Of a stretch of DNA of 64,000 nucleotides, positions 26,152-41,747 are shown one piece after another; the stretch's first letter is position 1; the number at the start of each line of letters is the position of its first letter. This stretch comes from Parapedobacter koreensis (GTDB lineage: Bacteria > Bacteroidota > Bacteroidia > Sphingobacteriales > Sphingobacteriaceae). Location: the NCBI RefSeq assembly GCF_900109365.1, contig NZ_FNZR01000006.1, positions 248,001 to 312,000 of the forward strand. The letters run 5' to 3'. The notes beneath the pieces were generated by a model. It did no database searches, had not been told where the DNA came from, and saw only the letters and a list, made by a program, of their open reading frames with translations. The translations under genes were made by a program, and so were the position numbers.

Positions 26152-26182
26152 CCCCGCTTCGCTCACCCGTAAGAACGTGTAG

Positions 26183-26377: not shown

Positions 26378-27427
26378 TTACGGATTCAATGTAGCTTTAA
26401 TAACGGCTGCGGCTTGCAGGATAGCGGTCTGTACGGCAGGCACGTCTGCGATGGGATTGAGCAAGCCATAATCGTGTATTAATCCGCTGTAGCGGGTCAG
26501 CGTTACGGGCACGCCGGCTTCATTCAGCCTTCTGGCGTATGCCTCGCCTTCGTCCCGCAGCACATCGTTTTCTGCCGTCTGTACCAGTGCCGGGGGCAGC
26601 CCGCGCAGCTCTTCCAACGTGGCTTGCAGGGGGGAGGCATAGATTTCCGTGCGTTTGGCCGTATCTGGGAGGTAATTATCCCAAAACCATTTCATCATGT
26701 TTTTGGTGAGAAACCGGCCTTCGGCAAACTGATTGTACGACTCGGTTTCAAAGTCGGCGTCGGTCACCGGCCAGAGCAGTACTTGGAGTTTGATGTGTGG
26801 CCCGTGCTGTTTTTTGGCCATCAGCGCGATGACGGCGCTCATATTGCCACCTACGCTGTTACCTGCTATAGCAAGGTTTTTTCCATCTACGCCGATTTCA
26901 CGCCCATGCTGCGCCACCCATTGCAACACGGCATAGATTTCATTGATGGCCGTGGGGTATTTGGCTTCCGGAGATGGCGAATAGTCCGGAAATATGGCTA
27001 CCGCACCACTGTGCACGACCAGATCGCGCACCAGCCGCCTATGGGTGGGGTAATCACCCAATACCCAGCCGCCACCGTGGATGAAGATAAAGACCGGAGC
27101 GTTTTCTTTCACCCCTTCGGGTCTGGTGATGTGGATGGTTACTTCGTGGCCGTTTTGTGAAATCACCCGCTCGGATTCTTCGATACCTGAATAATCCACC
27201 GTTACGGATTGCTGGGCACCGACCAATACCTGGCGGGCATCTTCCGGACTGAGCTGCTCCAGGGGCTTTCCGTCGCCTGAATTGAGTTCGTTCAAAAATG
27301 ACCGCACTTCCTTAAAAACCTGTGGGTCCTGTTCGCCTTTATAAGGCCTTTCTTGTGCTGATGCGAATGTGCTCATGGCTAAAAAGATTAATAACAAATC
27401 CTGCTGAATAAACGCTGAAAATTTCAT
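26378..27427 (-). CDS. Secreted alpha/beta hydrolase (HSL/GDXG-type esterase)
   Basis: A 349-residue enzyme, probably exported: residues 1-25 (MKFSAFIQQDLLLIFLAMST...) look like a signal peptide. The oxyanion motif HGGGW is at 117-121, the nucleophile elbow GNSVGG at 189-194 (Ser191), with a late Asp in AENDVLRDE and His in GLIHDYG. This is the hormone-sensitive-lipase fold acting on short acyl esters. The elbow has Asn-Ser-Val instead of the common Asp-Ser-Ala. The frame stays open to 27493, but that would overlap the OsmC gene; ATG 27427 gives a clean signal peptide. Likely co-transcribed with the gene ending at 27459. Confidence 0.85.
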   Translation of the reverse strand: MKFSAFIQQDLLLIFLAMSTFASAQERPYKGEQDPQVFKEVRSFLNELNSGDGKPLEQLSPEDARQVLVGAQQSVTVDYSGIEESERVISQNGHEVTIHITRPEGVKENAPVFIFIHGGGWVLGDYPTHRRLVRDLVVHSGAVAIFPDYSPSPEAKYPTAINEIYAVLQWVAQHGREIGVDGKNLAIAGNSVGGNMSAVIALMAKKQHGPHIKLQVLLWPVTDADFETESYNQFAEGRFLTKNMMKWFWDNYLPDTAKRTEIYASPLQATLEELRGLPPALVQTAENDVLRDEGEAYARRLNEAGVPVTLTRYSGLIHDYGLLNPIADVPAVQTAILQAAAVIKATLNP

Positions 27428-27458
27428 GTTTGTTTGCATTAAAAGTGAACCGTTTCGT

Positions 27459-27872
27459 TTACCCAACCAATTGTGCCTGAAGGACGATTTCAAAGCGGAA
27501 TGCCTGACTCACAGGGCAGGTCTTTTCGGCATTCCTGGCAATCTCCTGAAATGCAGCTTCGCTGATTCCCGGTACTTGGGCTTTCAGTTCCAGTAGCGAT
27601 TGCGTGATTTTACCATTGTCCAGTGTTACAGTCGCCGAGGTAACCAGTTCTTCGGGGGGATAGCCGGCCTGTGTGAGATCCAAGCTGAGCTTCATGGTAA
27701 AACAGCCGGCATGGGCTGCCGCCAGCAGCTCTTCGGGATTGGTACCGATGCCATCGGCAAACCGGCTATTGAATGAATAAGGGGTGTGGTTCAGTACGGT
27801 GCTGGCTGTCGTCAGGTGTCCGTTTCCTTCTTTGATGGTGCCGTTCCAAACGGCTTGCGCTTTGCGTTTCAT
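27459..27872 (-). CDS. OsmC-family peroxiredoxin-like protein
   Basis: A 137-residue protein matching the length and pattern of OsmC thiol peroxidases: Cys57 in HAGCFTM and Cys119 in KTCPVSQAF are the expected reactive pair, with GGxGTNPEELL-like spacing (GIGTNPEELLAAAHAG) before the first. These cytoplasmic enzymes reduce organic hydroperoxides. It is followed 32 bp later by the esterase and preceded by an AraC-type regulator on the same strand, suggesting a small stress-response cassette inserted among the permeases. Confidence 0.9.
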   Translation of the reverse strand: MKRKAQAVWNGTIKEGNGHLTTASTVLNHTPYSFNSRFADGIGTNPEELLAAAHAGCFTMKLSLDLTQAGYPPEELVTSATVTLDNGKITQSLLELKAQVPGISEAAFQEIARNAEKTCPVSQAFRFEIVLQAQLVG

Positions 27873-27918
27873 AACTTGTTTCCTTTCTTTTAATCAATTT
27901 TTGATTGTTTTGATGGAA

Positions 27919-27926
27919 CAAAGTTA
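27919..27926 (-). promoter_or_regulatory. Candidate -7 element of the OsmC gene
   Basis: TAACTTTG on the minus strand matches the Bacteroidota TAnnTTTG consensus 47-54 bp before the start codon. No convincing -33 element at standard spacing was found. Confidence 0.3.
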
Positions 27927-27984
27927 TGGCTGTTGAAGGGTCAGAAAAATACACAAATGGCGCTTCTGATTGTATATTTTTCCC

Positions 27985-28827
27985 TCATTGGTAGTTTTTC
28001 TTAAAAATCGCGGGGCTATTGCCCACTTTGCTGGTAAAAAGGCGGTTGAAATAAGCGGGGTCATCATATCCCAGGTCGTATGCGATCTCTTTAACGCTCA
28101 ATGCGGTATGGCTCAGCAGTCGTTTGGCTTCCAGGATGATACGGTCTTTGATGACATCATTGGGCTGTGGTAAGTCGAACCGTCTGAATTTGTTGGACAA
28201 GGTCTTGGCAGCCACGCCCATCAGATCAGCATACTCGGATACCGAGTGTTTTCTCTTGTAATGGATTTCCACCAGTCGGCTGAACTCGCGGAAAAATTCC
28301 GTTTCCCGGTGAGGCTCGTCGTTCAGCTTGCCGAGTTGTTGTTTTTTCCAGATCCGCGTAGCTCGGATAATCAATTGTTTCAAGTAAACCCGCAGCATTT
28401 CTTCCTGGGAAGAGGCATTAAGTTCAAATTCTTCTTCCATTTGCTGGAAGAGGTAGGCGGCCACTTGGTTTTCGTCTGCTGACAGGGCGGTCAGGGGCAT
28501 TTGGTAGCTATTATTGAAGAGCAGGCCATCGCAGGCCACTTCGGCATCATGAATCTGTATGCAATAGAAATCCCGGTTGTAGTAAATGAAAAAGCCGGTA
28601 CCTTCCCCGATGGCATGGACCGTCAGATGTTGGTTGGTGATAAAAAATACACCGGGCTGGCGGCCCGTGTATTCGTCGAAATCCACGGTGACGCGATGCC
28701 CGGCGGGCAAATAGAGGATGCGGATATACCCGTGGAATTGATGGCTGTTCAAGGCATCAACCATGTTGACTGATACCTTAATTAACCCGAATTTTTTATA
28801 GTTGGACTCGTAGATACGGTGTTGCAT
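27985..28827 (-). CDS. AraC-family transcriptional regulator
   Basis: A 280-residue regulator from ATG 28827 (a TTG at 28851 is a less likely start). The N-terminal half is a cupin-like sensing domain. The C-terminal ~100 residues form the double helix-turn-helix with HSVSEYADLMGVAAKTLSN and SVKEIAYDLGYDDPAYFNR then GNSPAIFKKNYQ. It is 112 bp upstream of the OsmC gene on the same strand and is the natural candidate to control it. An origin with a mobile unit is possible but no boundary is visible. Confidence 0.88.
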   Translation of the reverse strand: MQHRIYESNYKKFGLIKVSVNMVDALNSHQFHGYIRILYLPAGHRVTVDFDEYTGRQPGVFFITNQHLTVHAIGEGTGFFIYYNRDFYCIQIHDAEVACDGLLFNNSYQMPLTALSADENQVAAYLFQQMEEEFELNASSQEEMLRVYLKQLIIRATRIWKKQQLGKLNDEPHRETEFFREFSRLVEIHYKRKHSVSEYADLMGVAAKTLSNKFRRFDLPQPNDVIKDRIILEAKRLLSHTALSVKEIAYDLGYDDPAYFNRLFTSKVGNSPAIFKKNYQ

Positions 28828-28867
28828 AGCGGATGAGGATAAGCTATGCAAATTTAGCTAAACTTTA

Positions 28868-31358: not shown

Positions 31359-31427
31359 ACGACCATCCATAGCTGCTCACTGCCCTCGCCCTGCCCATCC
31401 GGCAGGCAGTCATCTGCAAGAGACGAG

Positions 31428-31443
31428 GCATTTTTTGCGCCAA
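31428..31443 (-). promoter_or_regulatory. sigma-54-like -24/-12 promoter, unit C
   Basis: TTGGCGCAAAAAATGC on the minus strand: GG at 31441-31440, ten bases, then the canonical GC. The best match to the sigma-54 consensus of the five. Confidence 0.68.
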
Positions 31444-31495
31444 AATGCTATTTGGTTGATTGTTAGCGTGTTAATAATTGGTCGGGGTGCTTGAG

Positions 31496-31542: not shown

Positions 31543-33627
31543 CTACAGCAGCCTTTTCGCCTCAAGAGACGCCTTAATCTCGTCGTGCTGTTTCCAAAAT
31601 TTCGTTTCGATAGTATGCATCACGCGTTTAAACTCCGGGTGATCCCTGATCGGGTCGACGATGGGATCATTGGGCAATAGCAGGATCCAATATTGATAAT
31701 TGTCTGCCTCCGAGAATTGCCTTAGGTGGTTTATTGCTTTTTCGGCATCTTGCTGATAGAGGTAGTACAGCGCCAGGTGCATAGGTTTGTAGATGGTTTG
31801 ATCGTCGTCCGAAAAAGCTTTGAAATTAGCGGCAAACTTATCCGCTTCTTCTCGGAATCCCCGATTAGCCAGTACAATGGCTATCGTTAAGTTAACGTTT
31901 CTAAAAATGTCCAATTGATAGCGTTCCCGGATTTCGATAAATCGCTTATAATACTGGTAGGCGCGTTCATCATCTCCATCGTAATGATAGACTTTCGCAA
32001 GTTCCTGCAAGATATATAGCAAGTTGGGATCCCGTTCCAATTCCTTTAATAGCAGTTGCCTACCAGCGTTGGTATTCTTATCTCTGGCGAAAAGGATAAC
32101 GGCTTTGACCCATACAGCAAACGAATTCGTTGGATTGTAATCCAGTGATTTATCAATATAGACAAGTGCCTCTTCAAGGAAACCAGTTTGGATAAACGCA
32201 TTGCTCAAATGCAGGTAATTAAGGCTGGATGCCGCAGAATCGCGCGCGGCGGCGTCCAGCCGAAGTCCCCGTAACGCATATTCGAGGTATTTGGCTGTAT
32301 TGGGGGTGAAGCTGTTATAAAAATCCGAAAGGAAATTGATGGCTAAGATGGAATTGGGATTGTATGCCAACGCTTTTTCAAAATACGGAATAGCCGCCTT
32401 GTATTCCTTTTTGTGCGCGTAGGACAACGCTTTGGCAATGAGGCTCTCCGGAAGTATCGGATCGTGGAAAATCGCTTTGTCTGCAAAGTCAGCGATCTCA
32501 TCCCCGTATTGTTGATCCACCATAAACAGATCCAGGTAGTAGCAGGCTATCGCACTACAGGCATAAGCAAGGGCGAATTTTTCATCATGTCCGATAGCCT
32601 GCTTGAAATAGCCGATGGCCCCTTTCAGGTTGTCGCTGCCCTCTTGGCGTAATAACTCGATGCCCTTTAAAAATAAATCATAGGCCACTAGACTTTCTGT
32701 GGGCTTCTTTTCTATGCGCCTTCGTTCATCCTGCGTGACGATGGCTTGAACTTCCTTTGCAATATCCTTGGCAATTTCTTCCTGTAACAAGAAAATATCG
32801 ATCGCTTGGCGACGGTATTGCTTAGCCCAAAGATGCCTGTCGCTGGGCCCATCGATGAGTTGAATGCTCAGCAGAAGTTGGTCGCCCATTTTTTGGCCGC
32901 TCCCTTCTACGAAATAGCGGGCGTTTAGCTCTTTTGCCATCTCTGGGATGGATTTTGCGACGTTCCGGTACTTTTCAGCCGATGTCCGGCTGATGACTTT
33001 GAGGTCTTTTATTTGCTGAAGATTGTTCAGCGTCGACTCCATTAAGCCGTTGATTAAATAGCGGTTGGTTGAATCGCTGCTTTCATTTTTAAAGGGCAAT
33101 ACGGCGATTGATTTTTCGAGGGGAGTCGATGTCGGTGCTGACCACCAATAATAGCCCAATAGACCGATGATCAATAGGACTAGCACCGCTAACGCACCCA
33201 CAACCATCACGTGCGATTTACGGTGGGAATAGATCAACGGCTTAGGTTCTTGATTTTGGTCGTCAGTTATGTTGTTCTTGTCTGCCCCGATTCGTTTATG
33301 TGTTTCTCCCGGTGGATACCCATAGTGTTCACGAAAGCATTTGATAAAATAGGAGGTACTGCCGAATCCTACTTGGTAGGCTATTTCAGATATGGTCAGT
33401 TGGGATGTTCTCAGCATGGACATGCTGTGTTCCAACCGAACTTGCCGGATGAACTGGCTAACCGATAGGTTGGTCAGGTGTTTTACCTTTCGCAATAGGT
33501 TTGAGCGGCTCATGTGCAGCTCGTTGGCCAGCTCGGATACGCCAAACTGCTCGTCGGATAAGTTATCCTCGATAACAGCCTTGATTTGGCTCATGAAATC
33601 TGGTGTATCAGGGTACAAATCGGGCAT
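31543..33627 (-). CDS. Membrane-anchored AraC-type regulator with TolB-N-like and TPR sensor region
   Basis: A 694-residue hybrid. Residues ~18-112 form an AraC double helix-turn-helix (FGVSELANELHMSRSNLLRK; ISEIAYQVGFGSTSYFIKCF). One membrane span covers ~140-162. Then comes SIAVLPFKNES, the start of a TolB-N/adenylate-cyclase-associated domain (~173-290), followed by TPR-like helical repeats to the end. DNA binding would be cytoplasmic and the sensor periplasmic, a one-component design. AraC domains are usually C-terminal; here it leads. It lies between the permease units and is divergent from an ankyrin lipoprotein gene. Confidence 0.85.
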   Translation of the reverse strand: MPDLYPDTPDFMSQIKAVIEDNLSDEQFGVSELANELHMSRSNLLRKVKHLTNLSVSQFIRQVRLEHSMSMLRTSQLTISEIAYQVGFGSTSYFIKCFREHYGYPPGETHKRIGADKNNITDDQNQEPKPLIYSHRKSHVMVVGALAVLVLLIIGLLGYYWWSAPTSTPLEKSIAVLPFKNESSDSTNRYLINGLMESTLNNLQQIKDLKVISRTSAEKYRNVAKSIPEMAKELNARYFVEGSGQKMGDQLLLSIQLIDGPSDRHLWAKQYRRQAIDIFLLQEEIAKDIAKEVQAIVTQDERRRIEKKPTESLVAYDLFLKGIELLRQEGSDNLKGAIGYFKQAIGHDEKFALAYACSAIACYYLDLFMVDQQYGDEIADFADKAIFHDPILPESLIAKALSYAHKKEYKAAIPYFEKALAYNPNSILAINFLSDFYNSFTPNTAKYLEYALRGLRLDAAARDSAASSLNYLHLSNAFIQTGFLEEALVYIDKSLDYNPTNSFAVWVKAVILFARDKNTNAGRQLLLKELERDPNLLYILQELAKVYHYDGDDERAYQYYKRFIEIRERYQLDIFRNVNLTIAIVLANRGFREEADKFAANFKAFSDDDQTIYKPMHLALYYLYQQDAEKAINHLRQFSEADNYQYWILLLPNDPIVDPIRDHPEFKRVMHTIETKFWKQHDEIKASLEAKRLL

Positions 33628-33677
33628 GGCGCAGCACAGTTTTTCGAAACAAATATACTTCTTGCACCGGGGTTTGC

Positions 33678-33710
33678 GTCATAATTTATACCGATTAGTC
33701 ATAATTTATA
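33678..33710. promoter_or_regulatory. Two direct repeats, candidate AraC-type sites
   Basis: GTCATAATTTATA occurs at 33678-33690 and again at 33698-33710, exactly 20 bp apart, in the divergent promoter region of the AraC/TPR regulator and the ankyrin lipoprotein. Tandem sites about two helical turns apart are typical of AraC-family binding; autoregulation is inference. Confidence 0.5.
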
Positions 33711-33822
33711 TGGGCTACTTCAAACTTGATGCGTTTATCCGCAAAACTGTTTAGTCCGTGCTTCTGAACTGACCGACCTTTAGGACATTGAAAAACCTTA
33801 TCAAATTTAATGGAATAATCGC

Positions 33823-34422
33823 ATGAAAACACCAGCAATCAATTTGTCAAAAGCAGTCTTTGGGGTAGCGTTCATTGCAGCGCTATGGACGGCAGCCTCC
33901 TGTTCAAGTGGGAATAGTACTGCACAACAAGATGGCACGTCGCCAAATGCAACTGGCGACGTTGAATCTCCGGCCGTGGATATCCATACGGCCGTAATAA
34001 CGGAAAACGTAGCGGCACTTCAGCAGCATATCGCGGCCGGAACTAACCTGAACGAGAAAGATCCGTTTGGAGGTTCGAGCCCGTTGATAACCGCCGCCAT
34101 ATTCGGGAAACCAGCAATGGCCGAGCTGTTGATTACGGCTGGAGCCGACTTGAATTTCCAGAATAACGAGGGGTCGACACCGCTTATTAGCGCTGCTTTT
34201 TTCGGACGGGCCGAAATTGTCAGGATGCTGTTGGATAGCGGTGCTGATAAAACAATCAAGAATAAATATGGGGCTACTGCCTATGACTCCGTGGCGGCAC
34301 CGTTCGGTGAGGTGAAAAACACCTATGATATAATGGGCAAGATGCTGGCGCCTATGGGGCTGAAGCTCGACTATGCCCACCTCGAAAAAGTACGACCCGA
34401 AATCGCTACGATGTTGAAATAA
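33823..34422 (+). CDS. Ankyrin-repeat lipoprotein
   Basis: A 199-residue protein with a lipoprotein signal ending in TAASC (Cys27), a low-complexity linker, then about three ankyrin repeats (DIHTAVITENVAALQQHIAA; SSPLITAAIFGKPAMAELLI; STPLISAAFFGRAEIVRMLL) to residue ~160. It is probably tethered to the outer face of a membrane and acts in protein binding. The stop is 22 bp before the acyltransferase gene, so the two are likely co-transcribed, divergently from the AraC/TPR regulator. Confidence 0.85.
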   Translation: MKTPAINLSKAVFGVAFIAALWTAASCSSGNSTAQQDGTSPNATGDVESPAVDIHTAVITENVAALQQHIAAGTNLNEKDPFGGSSPLITAAIFGKPAMAELLITAGADLNFQNNEGSTPLISAAFFGRAEIVRMLLDSGADKTIKNKYGATAYDSVAAPFGEVKNTYDIMGKMLAPMGLKLDYAHLEKVRPEIATMLK

Positions 34423-34444: not shown

Positions 34445-35545
34445 ATGAAAACAATACAAAGAAGATATGATATCGATTGGATTAGGGTAATTGCTATCGG
34501 TCTGCTCTTAATTTACCATGTAGCGATCGGCTTTCAGCCCTGGGGTATCATGATTGGATTCATTACTTCAGACAAACCGTGGGAGGCCTTATGGCTTCCC
34601 ATGGCTATGCTTAATGTATGGCGTATTCCGCTGTTATTCTATGTGTCGGGCATGGGGATTTATTTCGCCATGCAGCGTCGGAATTGGCGGCAACTGCTGC
34701 AAGAAAGGGCGAGGAGGATTCTGCTTCCCTTTCTTTTCGGTGCGTTAGTCTTCGTTCCCATCCATGTATACCTTTGGCAGTATTATTATCAATTTGACCG
34801 TACATATTCGCCCAGTCCGGGTCATCTATGGTTCTTGGGCAACATCATGATCTATGTCGTTGTATTGTTGCCAGTTTGCTTTTATCTGAAACGCCATGAG
34901 AGCGGTCCGTTTGTGGCGTGGCTGAAAAAAGGACTCAGCCATCCATTGGGTTTACTACCGGTCTTCAGCGTATTTGTTGCCGAAGCAATGCTTTTGGATC
35001 CGAAGCCTTTCGAACTGTACGCCATGACATCCCATGGGTTTTTCCTCGGACTGCTGGCTTTTTTCGTTGGGTTTTGTTTTGTGCTCGCCGGTCGCCCGTT
35101 TTGGGAGATGCTGCTCAAATGGCGATGGCTGTTTTTGGGAATTGCGCTGCTTCTTTTCGCCGTACGGCTCGTATATTTTGCATCCGATGCCCCGAATTAC
35201 CTACGATCCCTGGAGTCAAATTGTTGGATCATGGCGGTCTTTGCGTTCGCCCACAAGCACCTCAACCGTCCCAGCCGGACACTGCGGTATCTTAGTGAGG
35301 CCGCCTATCCGGTTTATATCGTACACATGGTATTCCTATACTTGGGAGCGTTGTTTCTGTTTCCGTTGGACATAGCCGCACCGTTGCAGTTCGTGCTCCT
35401 TTTGGTTGTGACAGCGGCCGGTAGCCTCGTGCTATATGAACTGGTTATCCGGCGGGTAAATTTCCTCAGGCTTTTATTTGGATTGCGCCACCGATTATTA
35501 TCCTCCCCGACATCACCGATTCCAGCCGTTGCAGACGAAACCTAG
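34445..35545 (+). CDS. Acyltransferase family 3 membrane protein
   Basis: A 366-residue integral membrane protein of the acyltransferase-3/OpgC type: it opens RYDIDWIRVIAIGLLLIYHV, has WRIPLLFYVSGMGIYFAMQ and about ten hydrophobic spans, ending ELVIRRVNFLRLLFGLR. Such enzymes acylate extracytoplasmic glycans or lipids; the substrate here is unknown. The last eight residues (IPAVADET) and the stop codon are encoded by the left arm of an alpha repeat beginning at 35518, so the C-terminus has been replaced or extended by the repeat. Confidence 0.85.
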   Translation: MKTIQRRYDIDWIRVIAIGLLLIYHVAIGFQPWGIMIGFITSDKPWEALWLPMAMLNVWRIPLLFYVSGMGIYFAMQRRNWRQLLQERARRILLPFLFGALVFVPIHVYLWQYYYQFDRTYSPSPGHLWFLGNIMIYVVVLLPVCFYLKRHESGPFVAWLKKGLSHPLGLLPVFSVFVAEAMLLDPKPFELYAMTSHGFFLGLLAFFVGFCFVLAGRPFWEMLLKWRWLFLGIALLLFAVRLVYFASDAPNYLRSLESNCWIMAVFAFAHKHLNRPSRTLRYLSEAAYPVYIVHMVFLYLGALFLFPLDIAAPLQFVLLLVVTAAGSLVLYELVIRRVNFLRLLFGLRHRLLSSPTSPIPAVADET

Positions 35546-35573
35546 GAGACGTTAGCGAAGCGAACCGGATCCA
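35518..35573 (+). repeat. Palindromic repeat, alpha type, right arm missing
   Basis: Starts GATTCCAGCCGTTGC, has the core CCTAGGAGACGTTAGCGAAGC and GGATCC, then breaks off into unrelated sequence. It overlaps the acyltransferase 3' end; the TAG of CCTAGG is its stop codon. Confidence 0.7.
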
Positions 35574-35594
35574 ATCATTCCCTTTCCCACTGCG

Positions 35595-35676
35595 GTTTTA
35601 AGTCCATTGCAGCCAAGGCCTAGGAGACGTTAGCGAAGCGCTACGGATCCAGTCGTGGCTGCAATGGACTTAAAAC
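35595..35676 (+). repeat. Palindromic repeat, beta type, 82 bp, perfect arms
   Basis: The arms GTTTTAAGTCCATTGCAGCC and GGCTGCAATGGACTTAAAAC are perfectly complementary over at least 20 bp. The core has CCTAGGAGACGTTAGCGAAGC and GGATCCAG. It lies between the converging acyltransferase and permease genes. Confidence 0.8.
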
Positions 35677-39019: not shown

Positions 39020-39100
39020 GTTTTATGCCCGTTGCAGCCAAGACCTAGGAGACGTTAGCGAAGCGCCACGGATCCAGTCTTGGCTGCAATGGGCTAAAAC
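39020..39100 (+). repeat. Palindromic repeat, beta type, 81 bp
   Basis: Arms GTTTTATGCCCGTTGCAGCC and GGCTGCAATGGGCTAAAAC pair with few mismatches. Core CCTAGGAGACGTTAGCGAAGC, GGATCCAG. Homology with the 41667 copy extends about 25 bp to the left (CCCTTCTTCCC, CCTCCACT). Confidence 0.78.
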
Positions 39101-41593: not shown

Positions 41594-41640
41594 GATTCAA
41601 GCCGTTGCGGATGAAACCTAGGAGACGGCAGCAAAGCGAA
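41594..41640 (+). repeat. Palindromic repeat, alpha type, right half missing
   Basis: GATTCAAGCCGTTGC, then CCTAGGAGACGGCAGCAAAGC, cut off before GGATCC; followed 26 bp later by a full beta copy, the same alpha-half/beta-full arrangement as at 35518-35676. Confidence 0.68.
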
Positions 41641-41666
41641 TCTACACCCTTCTTCCCGCCTCCACT

Positions 41667-41747
41667 GTTTTATGCCCGTTGCAGCCAAGGCCTAGGAGAC
41701 GTTAGCGAAGCGCCACGGATCCAGTCTTAGCTGCAATGGGCTAAAAC
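41667..41747 (+). repeat. Palindromic repeat, beta type, 81 bp
   Basis: Left arm GTTTTATGCCCGTTGCAGCC, right arm AGCTGCAATGGGCTAAAAC; core CCTAGGAGACGTTAGCGAAGC and GGATCCAG. It lies five bases from the stop of the 41753 gene. Confidence 0.78.

Follow-up and report, generated by a model that had tools for sequence, protein, structure and literature searches.

A predicted membrane-anchored AraC-type regulator and a conserved tandem site beside an ankyrin-repeat lipoprotein operon in Parapedobacter koreensis

Inside an array of permease genes, the genome of Parapedobacter koreensis carries a gene for an AraC-type protein (REG), and the question raised by this locus is which promoter the protein serves. 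We analysed the 64,000 nucleotides around the gene (NZ_FNZR01000006.1, positions 248,001 to 312,000), called the window here, together with related loci from other genomes. The gene and the parts of its product are as follows.

31543..33627, minus strand: regulator gene REG, 694 aa, ATG start, stop codon at 31543
33298..33603, minus strand: AraC/HTH_18 DNA-binding domain of REG, about aa 9-110, from Pfam and recognition-helix conservation
33145..33216, minus strand: single transmembrane helix of REG, about aa 138-161, from hydropathy and a helix at 141-161 in the model
32707..33123, minus strand: TolB-N-fold domain of REG, aa 169-307, from the structure model, predicted periplasmic
31588..32691, minus strand: TPR superhelix of REG, about aa 313-680, from Pfam and the structure model

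The domain order of REG is thus AraC-type DNA-binding domain, transmembrane helix, TolB-N domain and TPR superhelix. In Pfam, HTH_18 matches aa 33-112 (E 2.4e-22), and both PF12833 (79.4 bits; cut-off 33.6) and PF00165 (54.6 bits; cut-off 26.6) place the domain in the AraC/XylS type, while several TPR families also exceed their cut-offs. Hydropathy gives one hydrophobic segment, near aa 145. In the AlphaFold model of the full-length protein (mean pLDDT 79.0, pTM 0.54), the helix at 141-161 leads into an alpha/beta domain, which is followed by a long helical superhelix. TolB_N is absent from the Pfam matches at E 0.01. When aa 169-307 were modelled alone (17 sequences, pLDDT 83.3), it turned out that the model matches the TolB N-terminal domain 4pwz (Z 14.1, rmsd 3.4, 128 aligned), FlgT 3w1e (Z 13.1, rmsd 3.2, 126 aligned) and the CadC periplasmic domain 3ly8 (Z 11.1, rmsd 3.6, 128 aligned), and because of these fold matches we regard the TolB-N reading as correct despite the silence of Pfam at that threshold. 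Among the 15 Pfam families listed at E 0.01, REG has no Trans_reg_C (winged helix) and no histidine kinase or receiver domain. HTH_18, the TPR families, hydropathy and the fold matches therefore agree with the first-pass annotation, which had described a DNA-binding domain first, then one membrane span and a TolB-N-like and TPR region, and had taken the protein for a one-component transmembrane regulator, a view that the sequence supports.

From hydropathy, fold and the weak charge bias, we infer that the TolB-N and TPR part is periplasmic and acts as the sensor. A TPR part that stays in the cytoplasm and recognises a ligand or partner there, in the manner of MalT or Rap-type regulators, would suit the MalT domain III and Rap/NprR structures among the matches of the TPR part, as well as the weakness of the charge bias around the helix (3 K/R and 2 D/E before it, 1 and 1 after). 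We consider such an arrangement highly improbable, since a hydrophobic stretch is seen by eye at the same position in 11 aligned family sequences and TolB, FlgT and CadC contain domains similar to the TolB-N domain. The periplasmic sensor is the arrangement used below.

To find the conserved surroundings of REG, we searched 251 genomes of the family (P. koreensis included), drawn from a larger group, and obtained full-length orthologs in 10 other genomes with 54-70% identity; the next matches covered only part of the protein. With the family REG profile, a search of 395 genomes of the class added 8 orthologs (E < 1e-220) from four other families (f2, f15, f54 and f63), followed by a gap, as the next match has E 8e-85. 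A scan of genome contigs with the single REG protein gave one distant locus only. The locus set thus contains 19 loci (own genome, 10 from the family and 8 from outside), all of which were examined and none dropped. In 19 of 19 loci, REG is divergent from an ankyrin-repeat gene (ANK), which is followed by an acyltransferase-3 gene (ACYL). In the window, these two genes are:

33823..34422, plus strand: ankyrin-repeat lipoprotein (ANK), 199 aa, from Pfam and the lipobox
34445..35545, plus strand: acyltransferase-3 membrane protein (ACYL), 366 aa, MdoC-like (PF01757, E 6.6e-26)

The lipobox Cys27 of ANK is invariant in 11 family sequences. ACYL reaches 67 bits against the MdoC/OpgC NCBIfam equivalog, which is below its cut-off of 338. 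The weak likeness of ACYL to MdoC and the invariant lipobox cysteine of ANK suggest a role of this operon in the envelope, probably a modifying one.

The 195-bp intergenic region between REG and ANK contains a tandem repeat, and the first-pass annotation had reported two copies of a motif, 20 bp apart, in this divergent promoter region.

33675..33690, plus strand: candidate operator half-site 1, TGCGTCATAATTTATA, with a counterpart in 19 of 19 orthologous loci
33695..33711, plus strand: candidate operator half-site 2, TTAGTCATAATTTATAT, 20 bp after half-site 1, with a counterpart in 19 of 19 loci
33721..33754, plus strand: conserved blocks CAAACTTGATG and TCCGCAAAACTGTTTAG, between the candidate operator and the lipoprotein promoter

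The copies are confirmed as exact 13-bp repeats of GTCATAATTTATA at 33678-33690 and 33698-33710, with starts 20 bp apart. With up to 2 mismatches, the 13-mer is expected 1.75 times in the 64-kb window and was seen 2 times, so single copies are not notable, but the spaced pair is. In the whole P. koreensis genome, the exact 13-mer occurs only at 33678 and 33698; allowing 1 mismatch raises this to 7 places, the 2 exact copies and 5 others that differ at one base, compared with 8 for the reversed control. The spaced form CATAATTT-N12-CATAATTT (up to 2 mismatches) has 8 occurrences, compared with 4 for the reversed control; the pair beside REG is the sole exact one, and the 7 others have 2 mismatches. 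A wider regulon was considered as well; a second exact pair was looked for throughout the genome and none was found.

In the orthologous loci, a direct tandem pair with starts exactly 20 bp apart is present in 19 of 19 intergenic regions (consensus TGCATCATAATTTATA), and this period corresponds, at the level of sequence, to the tandem direct half-sites about two turns apart of AraC/XylS proteins. Scored against a 16+16-base consensus, the pairs reach 24-31 of 32 in 19 of 19 loci, and in each locus the spacing of 20 outscores all other spacings from 14 to 39; control windows of 470 bp, 760 in all and taken from these neighbourhoods, reach 22 at most. The consensus was built from family sequences, so the score is not independent for the 11 family loci, while the 8 outside loci are independent of it. 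When a stricter pattern of the pair was run over 390 class genomes, it matched in 5, each time at the divergon; this pattern measures specificity only, because it failed to match the own genome and two of the sampled orthologs (G251 and G374), and the ortholog genome G628 lies outside the sample. The first-pass annotation had suggested a genome search for the pair and had held absence elsewhere against the motif. The exact pair is indeed absent elsewhere in the own genome, but the orthologs keep a conserved 20-bp pair, and together these point to a one-site regulator and not to a meaningless motif. Its suggestion that the tandem sites are likely the own operator of REG has gained support accordingly from the sequence.

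Between the pair and the box of ANK lie two conserved blocks, 33721-33731 and 33738-33754, and part of the second may be a -33 element. PWM scores (z 3.6 and 2.0) had pointed to two more half-sites, a third at about +41 and a fourth at about +62, though the PWM reading of the reverse strand at 42 scored slightly above that at +41. They were not upheld by a column shuffle on 18 of the 19 rows (L114, with its shorter spacer, was left out), which gave 85/1000 at 41, 508/1000 at 62 and 276/1000 at 65 for direct half-sites and a marginal 25/1000 for the best inverted half-site, at 43.

To figure out which of the two divergent promoters the pair belongs to, we compared its distances to the promoter boxes on both sides. 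The Bacteroides promoter consensus has TAnnTTTG at -7 and TTTG near -33, and the TAnnTTTG part is also reported for Flavobacterium (PMC7366714). The boxes in the window are:

33774..33783, plus strand: CGACCTTTAG, -7-like box of the lipoprotein operon, at a fixed distance from the candidate operator
33650..33657, minus strand: TATATTTG, TAnnTTTG -7-like box of REG, from a pattern match

The lipoprotein box of the window, GACCTTTA, deviates from TAnnTTTG. On this side, 18 of 19 loci have a CTTTR box 101-102 bp away from the pair (ungapped, anchored on the pair), and in the remaining one (G251, L114) it lies at 81 bp, which is 20-21 bp, or two helical turns, closer. On the other side, the distance from the pair to the start of the REG match varies from 34 to 152 bp across the 19 loci. 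Such a constrained distance between pair and CTTTR box suggests that the main target is the lipoprotein operon. The pair stands about 80-100 bp upstream of the lipoprotein -7-like box, a greater distance than for AraC-family activators whose sites adjoin the -35 element.

The pair might instead be mainly autoregulatory for REG, self-repressing or self-activating, with the lipoprotein operon a mere neighbour. With a loose pattern, 14 of the 19 loci show a TAnnTTTG-like REG box at 25-27 bp from the pair, so that a bound protein would sit against the -33 region of REG, and in these loci, where the distance is near-fixed, autoregulation could be the main role. Against this, the same loose pattern finds no REG box at that distance in 5 of 19 loci (L110-L114), the distance to the lipoprotein box is the one that is kept, apart from the two-turn variant, and the operon is linked to REG in every locus. 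We therefore regard a mainly autoregulatory pair as unlikely, but autoregulation of REG, beside control of the lipoprotein operon, is likely in most lineages.

Does REG itself bind the pair? When REG of the window is compared with its 18 orthologs, the recognition-helix regions are 55-88% identical and the TPR part 39-70%, while the transmembrane and linker region drops to 9-24%. The segments MSRSNLLRR and SYFIKCFRE are little altered in 19 orthologs and different in five paralogs. We also examined six related AraC-domain proteins, one of which (L152) has no transmembrane segment, and found no comparable pair with 20-21 bp spacing in 6 of 6: the pair score was reached by 17, 60, 150, 184, 185 and 193 of 200 shuffles, against 0 (L078) and 3 (L110) in the positive controls of the same test.

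The presence of the pair also follows that of the REG gene. CATAWTTT-N12-CATAWTTT is found at this promoter in 10 of 10 relatives with REG and in none of the 5 selected relatives that lack it; one extra place occurs in G073, and the reversed control has one place, in G078. Besides, the operon occurs without REG in two genomes. At E 1e-60, the ACYL profile finds 12 of 251 family genomes, namely the 11 with REG and G180, and in the class it finds 10 of 395, namely 9 with REG and G290. In G180 (L166:6331-9150), ANK-ACYL directly follows, on one strand, the genes of an ECF sigma factor (Sigma70_r2, E 6.9e-15; Sigma70_r4_2, E 1.4e-13) and of a 221-aa protein with no family above cut-off and a hydrophobic stretch seen by eye, and there is no AraC-type regulator match at this locus. 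In G290, a DUF2975-like protein (weak, below cut-off) and a small HTH-like reading frame (by eye) accompany ANK-ACYL, the former upstream. The best pair scores, 18 and 19 on the two strands in G180 and 19 in G290, are inside the control range, so both genomes that have the operon without REG lack the pair. In this small sample, pair and REG appear to be present or absent together, and the ANK-ACYL operon seems able to change its regulator. That another, unlinked regulator binds the pair while the AraC protein acts elsewhere is very unlikely in view of this joint occurrence, of the operons that lack both and of the recognition helices conserved alongside the site. REG remains our candidate for the protein that occupies the pair.

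The position of REG inside the permease array suggests another target, and the first-pass annotation had proposed that it senses an envelope signal relevant to the permeases. Between permease C and the 3' end of REG, permease C has upstream signals of its own:

31427-31445: -24/-12-like element of permease C, sigma-54-like by eye
31496: TGTYCG-N4-CGRACA palindrome near permease C, from a pattern match

The annotation had placed REG ten bases from the operator of unit C. This distance is roughly right (by eye, the second palindrome ends at about 31533, and the stop codon is at 31543), but it is the 3' end of REG, not its promoter, that faces permease C. Permease homologues are near REG in 6 of 11 same-family loci (own and 5 of 10; stretches of 12 to 20 kb), which fits control of the array. 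They are found in 0 of 8 loci outside the family (stretches of 17 kb), though an ABC ATPase homologue is present in three of these (L111, L113 and L114), while ANK and ACYL are kept in 19 of 19. Moreover, the own genome has no second exact pair, and the permeases have palindromes and -24/-12-like elements of their own. Control of the permease array by REG was rejected on this evidence from neighbourhood, site and orientation, and we hold it to be extremely improbable. The permeases may be under sigma-54 control: -24/-12-like elements lie at 26182 and 31427 in the window, and the genome encodes five strong sigma-54 activator domains (> 200 bits). The genome has 20 distinct occurrences of TGTYCG-N4-CGRACA, compared with 0 for the reversed control, and 6 of the 20 are in the window (8308, 26250, 31496, 38266, 45091 and 45112), upstream of several permeases.

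Several further features of the window were noted. The TGTYCG-N4-CGRACA palindrome looks like the operator of a separate regulon of sigma-54 type for the permease array, and no tie between this system and REG was found. Between two permeases of the array, positions 26378-28851 encode an alpha/beta hydrolase, an OsmC-like protein and a second AraC-type regulator (288 aa). A repeat element centred on GGAGACGTTAGCGAAGCG, which includes inverted repeats (GTTTTAAGTCCATTGCAGCCA and its complement), occupies intergenic positions 35545-35676, 39022-39099 and 41602-41712; with up to 2 mismatches it occurs at 19 places in the genome, 13 of them on the contig of the window, against 0 in the reversed control.

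Taken together, REG is probably a transmembrane one-component activator that resembles CadC, has AraC specificity and serves a single operon, and it probably also regulates its own gene. This reading builds on the domain order, the three-gene divergon, the fixed-spacing pair, the fixed distance to the lipoprotein box and the lack of a further exact pair in the own genome. The AraC-type domain would be cytoplasmic, one helix would pass through the inner membrane, and the TolB-N and TPR part would form the periplasmic sensor. Two REG subunits would bind the tandem half-sites TGCRTCATAATTTATA, which, being 20 bp apart, should both be on one face of the DNA. From the pair, REG would control, and most likely activate, the divergent ANK-ACYL operon, and probably its own promoter too; activation is preferred to repression because of the habit of the family and the distal, fixed position of the site. 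As in CadC, a periplasmic signal would alter the association of the sensor parts and thereby DNA binding or the contact with RNA polymerase, so that signal-dependent association of the TolB-N and TPR parts would let two AraC domains occupy the pair. Points that count against this reading include the period of the half-sites, 20 bp and not 21 bp, the distance of the pair from the lipoprotein box, the deviation of that box from TAnnTTTG, the near-fixed REG box of 14 loci, the orthologs missed by the strict class pattern, and the outcome of the search for weaker proximal half-sites to bridge the gap to the box, which were not significant when direct (85/1000 shuffles) and marginal when inverted (25/1000).

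The sensor part of REG has relatives with other output domains. TolB-N/TPR adenylate cyclases of the same class match the same TM-TolB-N-TPR part of the REG profile, but have an N-terminal cyclase domain (PF00211 in L149 of G594 and in L153 of G374) instead of the DNA-binding domain. Because the cyclase domain replaces the DNA-binding domain in these related proteins, TM-TolB-N-TPR looks like a reusable sensor module. As separate observations, L154 (G566) has five tandem genes with cyclase-like N-termini by eye, four of which match the TolB-N-TPR profile, and L150:3541-7041 (G485) encodes a distant AraC-TolB-N-TPR regulator beside a DUF418 membrane protein, whose TolB-N region (that of the regulator) matches FlgO above cut-off.

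In a wider sense, and tentatively, the locus may be a single-target switch, in which a membrane-tethered AraC protein has its only strong genomic site beside its own gene and an envelope module keeps its partners but swaps its regulator between lineages. If so, the regulator of the module would be an AraC-TolB-N-TPR protein, an ECF sigma factor with a partner protein, or another. Selection would then keep the REG gene and its site side by side, since a protein fixed in the membrane has to reach its DNA target from there, and would also keep the distance from operator to promoter at whole helical turns. Comparative genomics gives a likely operator, a likely target operon and a natural spacing variant (G251), and with these, how a tethered regulator finds and activates a promoter becomes testable in a one-site case. 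The comparison further connects a lipoprotein-acyltransferase pair that is still uncharacterised with predicted periplasmic sensing.

Among known systems, REG resembles transmembrane transcription regulators in having a DNA-binding domain and a predicted transmembrane helix in one polypeptide. Transmembrane one-component regulators are numerous in Bacteroidota; a survey of such proteins (PMC10269533) finds the phylum of REG enriched for them and notes that very few have experimental validation. By term counts, AraC, TolB and TPR do not occur in its main text, so the REG architecture is not discussed there. Nor is AraC-TM-TolB-N-TPR described in the titles and abstract starts of the literature matches listed. 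The hybrid two-component systems of Bacteroidota share the AraC-type domain: outside the orthologs, close AraC-type DNA-binding domains are found in long ORFs, mostly of about 1,340-1,510 aa, which we take to be such systems, and structure chain 12aw, named hybrid two-component system, is among the close domains. REG differs from them, with no kinase or receiver domain among the families listed and with its DNA-binding domain at the N-terminus.

With AraC/XylS regulators, REG shares HTH_18 with both recognition helices and a candidate operator of directly repeated, bipartite half-sites. AraC and other classical members are soluble proteins whose DNA-binding domain is C-terminal, whereas that of REG is N-terminal and membrane-anchored, with a 20-bp period and a distal site. 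The half-site TGCA-N6-TTTATA resembles the XylS site TGCA-N6-GGNTA, which is given twice in PMC4514859 with a period that we count as 21 bp.

The likeness to CadC lies in the N-terminal DNA-binding domain, the single transmembrane helix and the predicted periplasmic first domain, whose fold is that of the ToxR/CadC type (3ly8, Z 11.1). The DNA-binding domain of CadC is a winged helix, while REG has AraC/HTH_18 in place of the Trans_reg_C domain of ToxR/CadC, its C-terminal part is a long TPR superhelix, and regulator and target operon are divergent. As described in PMC6320335, the CadC gene stands beside its operon, the cadBA promoter has two binding sites, each with a dimer, and CadC dimerises through its periplasmic domain on signal; the REG gene likewise stands beside its operon, with two sites in the putative target promoter.
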